From Caenorhabditis remanei (taxonomy: Eukaryota; Nematoda; Chromadorea; Rhabditida; Rhabditidae), in contig NC_071332.1 of NCBI RefSeq assembly GCF_010183535.1, positions 18,786,001 through 18,850,000 of the forward strand: a stretch of 64,000 bases of DNA, read 5' to 3'. Positions 62,526-64,000 of the stretch are shown piece by piece. The notes beneath the pieces were generated by a model. The model had not been told where the DNA came from, did no database searches, and saw only the letters and a program-made list of their open reading frames with translations. The position numbers and the translations under genes are program-made. Position 1 is the first letter of the stretch; each line of letters begins with the position of its first letter.

Positions 62526-64000
62526 ATGAAAATTCTGTCTTCATTTAACACTTTTATTTTGCTGCTTCTTGTCATTCCGGTGACAGTTTCATTGTTGACT
62601 TCCGGTCTCGGATTTGGTTATATTGAAAAGGAAGATGACTCTCGCGAAACCTGCGAAGTCATAGATATCACTATGGAATTTGGGGATGCTCATGTCTTTC
62701 TTGAAAACCTCCAAAAAAATGCGCAGCACGTGGAAGAATCAATCGGACGTCGGCACCTATCAAAACCCGAAAAGGCCGAGCCGTAATTCTTGCGGTTGGT
62801 GGTGTCGTTGCAGGAGCAACAGCATTAACTATTGTCGTTTTTGATCACTTGAGAAACGAAGAGCGCTTTAACTCAATTAAAAAGCAGGAGGAGATCCATA
62901 AGAATATTACTCAACTGATCAACAACAAGTCTCATTTAACCCAAGAGTGAGTTTTAAACTAAATCATTCAGTGATTGTTATTATAAAAATTGCAGCTTAA
63001 TGATGGAGATGGAAGGTCAAATCAACAACAACACTTATGAGCACGTAGTCAACACGATTTTTGGAACAGGAGACATTGAAGTGGTGACTTCGTTTTTCAA
63101 AGTGAATTTGAGTGTAAGTTAGCCATATTTTAACTTAAATAAGAGTGCAATTTTCAAATAGGAAATCCTCCACAACATGGGATTCGATGACAGGATGGGA
63201 CTTGATGCCGCACAAAAGCTTAGCCACAAGCTTGTCTGTGGCCACACGTCCCGGCACTATCAGTTACAGATTTGTGGCACAGAAAACCCGACCAGACGTT
63301 TTGGAGAAGTGAAATTAGTAAGTTCTAAGAAGAGGGAAACTTTCGGTGTAATTAATTTATTCTAGGTCGCTCCACCTGGAAACTACGGAAACAAAGGAAC
63401 AATGTACTCATACTACAAAGTTCCAAAATTCGTAGTTTTCACTGATGGAGGTCCGGTGTCGGCTATCAGTTGCCAGCCGTTTGGAAATTATTACAATTGC
63501 ATCGAGTCAAAGGGAAATTGTGGATACAACACATACAAGAGATGTCCAGTCAAGCGAGTTCACACTCCAAATAGTGTGTACGCTACGGAGTTGGGCGATG
63601 CGACAGTGGTGGCCAGCGCTGTTGATGTACGTTTGATATTTCCTGATTTTCTGATAATTTCAAAAATTGAAACATTACAGCACTATTCGGTGTATGAAAA
63701 TGGATCCGACATCGCATTCACGGACCACAAGTTCCCGGCGTCGGGGCAACTTTTGATTCGCGCTCCACACACTACAAAGATTCGGATTGGTAATATTACA
63801 ATTCAAGGACGGCACGATTTCATGGAATTGAAAGAAGTCCATGTATCTGAACAAATCCCTCAACTGGATCATGCCAAACTTGAAGAGTGGATGAACGATG
63901 ATGATGCTATTGACAAGGCTTTCTCAGATTTAGAGAAGGAACGGATGCATGCCAATGTCGAGTTCGAGTGGGGATTGGACTCAATACTCCATTGGTTCAA
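62526..64000 (+). CDS. Secreted/membrane glycoprotein with class I fusogen-like layout (partial; frame break in exon 1)
   Basis: Not recognised as a named family. Exons inferred: 62526-62946, 62996-63113, 63162-63317, 63366-63626, 63681-beyond 64000, all later introns with good nematode splice sites. An N-terminal signal peptide (ILLLLVIPVTVSLL) leads a segment of about 60-80 residues with one Cys. Then comes a basic stretch (KTRKGR), a Gly/Ala-rich hydrophobic segment (AVGGVVAGATALTIVV), a heptad-like helix with an N-glycosylation sequon, more sequons (NNT, NLS, NGS, NIT), a Cys-rich part at 63,470-63,560 (six Cys) and an acidic helical region at the window edge. Signal, basic site, hydrophobic stretch, coiled coil is the order of class I fusion proteins; similarity is architectural only. 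The signal-peptide frame does not continue into the rest: a -1 shift is needed somewhere in 62,705-62,786, at or near an A-rich run. It may be a pseudogene, an assembly error, or frameshifted. A type II membrane protein is the alternative. Confidence 0.55.
62714..62720 (+). other. A-AAA-AAT heptamer at the frame break of the glycoprotein gene
   Basis: In the signal-peptide frame the codons read (ca)A AAA AAT, which fits the X-XXY-YYZ form of -1 slippery sites, and -1 is the direction needed. The run is also a simple seven-A homopolymer, so a one-base indel explains it equally well. A weak 59-bp intron (62668-62726) would also restore the frame, but its splice sites are poor. Confidence 0.3.

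Follow-up and report, generated by a model that had tools for sequence, protein, structure and literature searches.

Why would a Helitron, a rolling-circle DNA transposon, carry what looks like a gene for a membrane-fusion protein? The question is raised by a stretch of 64,000 nucleotides of the Caenorhabditis remanei genome (130.5 Mb), bases 18,786,001-18,850,000 of contig C5 (NC_071332.1; hereafter the window), in which the Helitron B3 holds a glycoprotein gene, gp, next to its Rep-helicase gene. Our reading, to which we give a probability of roughly 0.7, is that the product of gp is an F-type class I membrane-fusion glycoprotein and that the gene is a genuine component of several C. remanei Helitron lineages, in which it lies divergent from Rep. 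As judged from sequence, gp is enclosed by the ends of the Helitron in the B and C4 lineages and adjoins Rep in one more; this recurrence beside Rep, together with the small number of nonsynonymous changes, amounts to more than chance.

The features on which the argument turns are, in window coordinates:

51577 to 64000, minus strand, with its 5' end at 65821 (L009:5821) outside the window: Helitron B3, from junctions read on the sequence and a 100 kb self-comparison.
52352 to 61999, minus strand: B3 Rep-helicase gene, a multi-exon model made by eye, with a Rep domain and a PIF1 helicase.
62000 to 62525, no strand assigned: shared divergent upstream region from the Rep ATG to the gp ATG, from the sequence.
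62526 to 62946, plus strand: gp exon 1, with the leader, an F2-like chain, RKGR, the hydrophobic segment and the beginning of the helical region; this copy has a frame break.
62996 to 63113, plus strand: gp exon 2, the remainder of the helical region (splice sites read; the deposited protein P0003 agrees).
63162 to 63317, plus strand: gp exon 3, an NPTR segment and two conserved cysteines (splice sites read; P0003).
63366 to 63626, plus strand: gp exon 4, a Cys-rich part with four conserved cysteines (splice sites read; P0003).
63681 to 64000, plus strand, running on to 64127 outside the window: gp exon 5, the membrane-proximal helical region, anchor and basic Cys-rich tail.
7383 to 7402, plus strand: 20-base gp leader remnant in Helitron copy B1, at a deletion junction, an exact match to 62582 between matches to 62347 and 64693.
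20929 to 20948, plus strand: an identical 20-base remnant, here in copy B2.

Does gp belong to the Helitron? B3 spans 14,245 bases (51577-65821); its 3' end consists of hairpins and then GACGCTAG at 51577, and its 5' end, TCCACCACC at 65813-65821 on the minus strand, lies on the far side of gp from Rep, with no such end between the two genes. The motif TCCACCACC occurs nine times in the 100 kb: seven occurrences are on the minus strand and are read as 5' ends, five of them directly after a hairpin and GACGCTAG, the next element's 3' end, and two after other DNA; the remaining two are on the plus strand. In our own reading the Rep ATG at 61999 (minus strand) and the gp ATG at 62526 (plus strand) stand head-to-head with 526 bases between them, and the Rep gene matches PF14214 (E = 8.6e-49) and PF05970 (E = 5e-19) on 54563-57175. 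Rep and PIF1 are likewise joined elsewhere, PF14214 and PF05970 falling in a single 1315-aa frame in C116 and both adjoining gp in the C4 copies. Helitrons B1 and B2 have the Rep side and the 5'-terminal kilobase in common with B3, and gp is absent from them in the self-comparison; what they retain is, first, promoter pieces, then 20 bases that code for part of the gp leader, and after these the sequence from 64693 onward. Because they hold this remnant, gp was lost by B1 and B2, not gained by B3. The initial annotation of this DNA, made from the letters alone, had placed gp inside B3 and head-to-head with Rep; both points hold, and the other B copies without gp turn out to be deletions.

The gene itself begins at 62526 on the plus strand and, in our reading, has five exons; its stop codon lies at window coordinate 64127, 127 bases past the window's end. 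Exon 1 of the window copy contains a frame break, which may be a mutation or an assembly error; the copy 21.5 kb downstream is open in exon 1 and otherwise identical across the gene, and its start matches P0003. A short intron as the cause of the frame change was ruled out by hand on the sequence, and the open neighbouring copy settled the matter. The gene had also been described at the outset as intronised, and its introns look real: three of the four in B3 have counterparts at identical positions in the C116 relative, with one private intron in each gene, so gp had introns before these lineages split. We also considered GATA sites (WGATAR) in the shared promoter, counted against shuffles preserving single-base content only; B3 has 4 against 1.80 expected (0.108, not significant), and among the other promoters C4 has 6 against 1.87 (0.01, the only value so low) and C116 has 2 against 2.51, and the idea was dropped.

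What kind of protein would this gene make? P0003 (467 aa) has a hydrophobic leader at 9-25, RKGR at 82-85 followed by a hydrophobic Gly/Ala segment at 87-103, seven sequons, eight ectodomain cysteines and a transmembrane segment at 433-449; for the window's gp, the anchor and basic Cys-rich tail are encoded past the window end, at L009:4020-4127, to the right of 64000, where the initial annotation had proposed to look for an anchor. The order of leader, basic cleavage site, fusion-peptide-like segment and C-terminal anchor is found in P0003, P0001 and the C116 model, and each of the three lineages that these represent has RxxR with a hydrophobic segment next to it, eight cysteines in the ectodomain, and the anchor. 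From the class I-like layout first proposed, the leader, basic site, Gly/Ala hydrophobic segment, sequons and Cys-rich ectodomain stand, and the heptad-like helix is weak: compared with shuffles, heptad (3.5-residue) periodicity in the region that follows the hydrophobic segment gave 0.026 for P0003, 0.394 for P0001 and 0.605 for C116, exceeding the shuffles in one of three proteins there and in none of three in the region before the anchor, although helices are predicted in these regions at low confidence. The class I proteins that gp resembles are the F proteins of paramyxo- and pneumoviruses, baculovirus F and the Env of gypsy (errantivirus) elements, with which it shares a short N-terminal chain with two cysteines, a basic site, a hydrophobic segment, a long Pro-free stretch, a Cys-rich part, a membrane-proximal helix and an anchor. 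Gypsy Env is itself homologous to the fusion glycoproteins of baculoviruses, retroviruses and paramyxoviruses (PMC6431247). Set against these proteins, gp gives no significant sequence match, lies on a rolling-circle DNA transposon and contains introns.

Sequence searches against PDB, Pfam and NCBIfam gave nothing convincing, and none of them names the family; neither Baculo_F (PF12259) nor Fusion_gly (PF00523) matched the three full-length gp proteins, and Baculo_F appeared below threshold in 2 of 14 C-terminal pieces. The AlphaFold models are poor (pLDDT 53 and 44). With these poor models and no control fold, Foldseek against PDB placed paramyxo/pneumovirus F in all of the best 50 of 241 matches for P0003 and in 40 of the best 50 of 338 for P0001, and in the viral library the top rank went to a granulovirus (baculovirus) F. 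Neither kind of comparison produced a confident match to an unrelated secreted family, the outcome named beforehand as weighing against a fusogen. A scan of viral contigs with P0001 gave ten pattern matches and no relative.

That no fusion-protein family was matched by sequence, and that the structure models are poor, favours an alternative that we regard as unlikely: that Helitrons, in which the capture of gene pieces is known (PMC6431247), took up a surface protein of host origin, receptor-like or adhesive and not a fusogen, that is perhaps useful to them in some other way. Against it stand the RxxR directly before the hydrophobic segment and the anchor at the far end, seen in three lineages, and the top rank of F proteins in two structure libraries. 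Nor did a conserved host gene turn up as the origin in our three protein searches, which returned 2, 11 and 10 proteins, from C. remanei, two environmental fragments and the window's own, with all named matches from C. remanei; the search needs shared 5-residue words, and one of the three scored the best 7997 candidates, so distant relatives may escape it.

How regularly does gp accompany Rep? We searched the genome with gp and with the Rep domain (PF14214). Complete copies of gp number seven (two on C5, two in tandem on C4, and one each on C18, C116 and C129), and every one adjoins Rep in divergent orientation; the C4 lineage likewise has its 5' end past gp, after a hairpin and CTAG. Counted as merged loci, with the two C4 copies taken as one, 6 of 21 have a PF14214 match no more than 12 kb away, as against 0.62% of the genome, a linkage whose nominal P of 2.9e-9 is overstated, the copies being related and the lineages only three. 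This count started from 29 gp places, with overlapping exons removed, and used 36 of 38 Rep rows, two weak rows beside others being excluded. The remaining 15 loci have no PF14214 match that near and are seen as fragments; one gp fragment, at C6:21495853, adjoins an N-terminal exon of Rep that can still be recognised. On C90 and C119 the Rep copies start too close to the contig end for the presence of gp to be judged. There was no match to gp near the ten top-scoring Rep loci, which we take as family A on a comparison of two of the ten, none near five loci taken as family D, and none among open reading frames of at least 90 aa upstream of the window's D copy.

Two further C4 regions contain gp-like sequence. 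In the C4 Helitron, the interval from gp to the downstream part of Rep holds another gp-like gene, now decayed (P0011, GCK72_012185; C4:1071856-1072089, minus strand, L033), and a separate copy of the promoter region of gp accompanies it. At C4:20.90-21.05 Mb (L023, L026, L030, L031; P0005, P0007, P0009, P0010), a cluster of gp fragments is fused in gene models to other pieces, one of which looks by eye like the hydrolase-like frame of C116; one fragment lies beside an exon that is DNA-polymerase-like by eye and has no Pfam match. No match to PF14214 or PF05970 is listed in this cluster.

Relationships among the copies differ between the two genes. Over aligned parts, Rep is 58.6% identical between B3 and C4, and C116 Rep is 23.1% and 26.2% identical to B3 and C4, respectively, over about 150 residues; for gp the closest pair is C4 and C116 (43.6%), followed by B3 and C4 (37.0%) and B3 and C116 (32.0%). 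Because the gp and Rep relationships disagree, a discordance that rests on pairwise identities, the simplest reading would be that gp passed as a module between distant Helitrons or was taken repeatedly from one source. Between C116 and C18, the five exons of gp differ by 25 synonymous and 6 nonsynonymous changes (ratio of nonsynonymous to synonymous rates, dN/dS, 0.064), and the last exon of B3 compared with a decayed C6 copy gives dS 0.302 and dN 0.044; the low nonsynonymous change could in part be inherited from the shared history of a few copies.

Few nonsynonymous changes would also fit a protein that derives from a fusogen and works by interference, blocking receptors or superinfection and so protecting the resident Helitron or its host from viruses or related elements. 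Domesticated Env proteins are capable of this. We hold it to be improbable for gp, which retains its cleavage site, its hydrophobic segment and its anchor; interference alone would not require them. The least probable account, that gp is a viral or retroelement fusogen gene acquired by Helitrons as a passive passenger of no use to them, can point to the loss of gp from B1 and B2, to the 15 of 21 loci that are seen as fragments without PF14214 nearby and to Helitron families without gp, but is hard to square with a dN/dS of 0.064, with the same head-to-head position in three lineages and with an architecture conserved at 32-44% identity.

Further resemblances lie at both ends of the Rep gene beside gp. 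The N-terminal part of the B3 Rep gene (60463-61425, minus strand) is macro-like (Macro, E = 0.0079, under the curated cut-off), and a similar-looking N-terminal stretch is seen by eye in the C4, D and C116 Helitrons; the C-terminal part (52352-53773, minus strand) is ubiquitin-hydrolase-like (UCH, E = 0.0082, under the curated cut-off), as is a separate frame in C116 (UCH, E = 0.0017). VTD and OTU deubiquitinases occur on other Helitrons (PMC9741609). The surrounding region, C5:18776001-18876000, is a head-to-tail Helitron array: the 3' CTAG of one element directly adjoins the 5' TC of its neighbour, and the array contains large duplications that are nearly identical.

If gp is a class I fusogen, how might it work? 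A furin-like protease would cut the precursor into F2-like and F1-like chains, probably joined by a disulfide; the freed hydrophobic N-terminus would then insert in a target membrane, and helical refolding would merge the membranes. In the least certain step, Helitron DNA intermediates would exit the cell in vesicle-like particles bearing the gp protein and reach other cells, the germline or other worms. We guess at vesicles because spread needs a particle and no capsid gene was seen in B3. Carriage of Helitron DNA between cells or species by gp is an inference. It is possible, though we lean against it, that these Helitrons are a new sort of infectious agent, rolling-circle DNA elements that exit in capsid-less, fusogen-bearing particles and swap the fusogen gene between lineages, much as env turned retrotransposons into retroviruses.

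How does this compare with what mobile elements are known to carry? Autonomous Helitrons with RPA, OTU, VTD deubiquitinase and AP endonuclease share with B3 the Rep-helicase core, the 5' TC, the 3' hairpin and CTAG and a deubiquitinase-like part (PMC9741609, PMC6431247); unlike the gp-bearing Helitrons, they have no membrane glycoprotein among the accessory genes described in the passages of these papers that were read. Among the matches listed from the open-licence PMC literature (titles and starts of abstracts, with bioRxiv and most subscription journals outside its range), none describes a Helitron fusogen. The Maverick fusogen is reportedly herpesvirus-like, and Mavericks are said to encode capsid proteins. 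Nematode Mavericks (Polintons), including those of Caenorhabditis, carry a putative fusogen that has been proposed to aid horizontal transfer (PMC10680173). Like gp, it is a fusogen gene on a Caenorhabditis DNA transposon; gp is set apart from it, by description, in lying on a Helitron in which no capsid gene was seen. A hookworm endogenous belpaovirus has a phlebovirus-like class II envelope (PMC9094657), another case of a mobile element of nematodes with an envelope-type gene, but class II and on a retroelement whereas gp is class I-like and on a Helitron.

Helitrons have been reported to cross species (for example, PMC4038834, PMC4344730). A fusogen-like gene kept by three Helitron lineages within a single worm that can be studied in the laboratory would offer a candidate exit and entry protein for rolling-circle transposons, and would show a third class of mobile element, after retroelements and Mavericks, reaching the same solution. 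gp might give these Helitrons a route between cells or species, and it makes that question testable.
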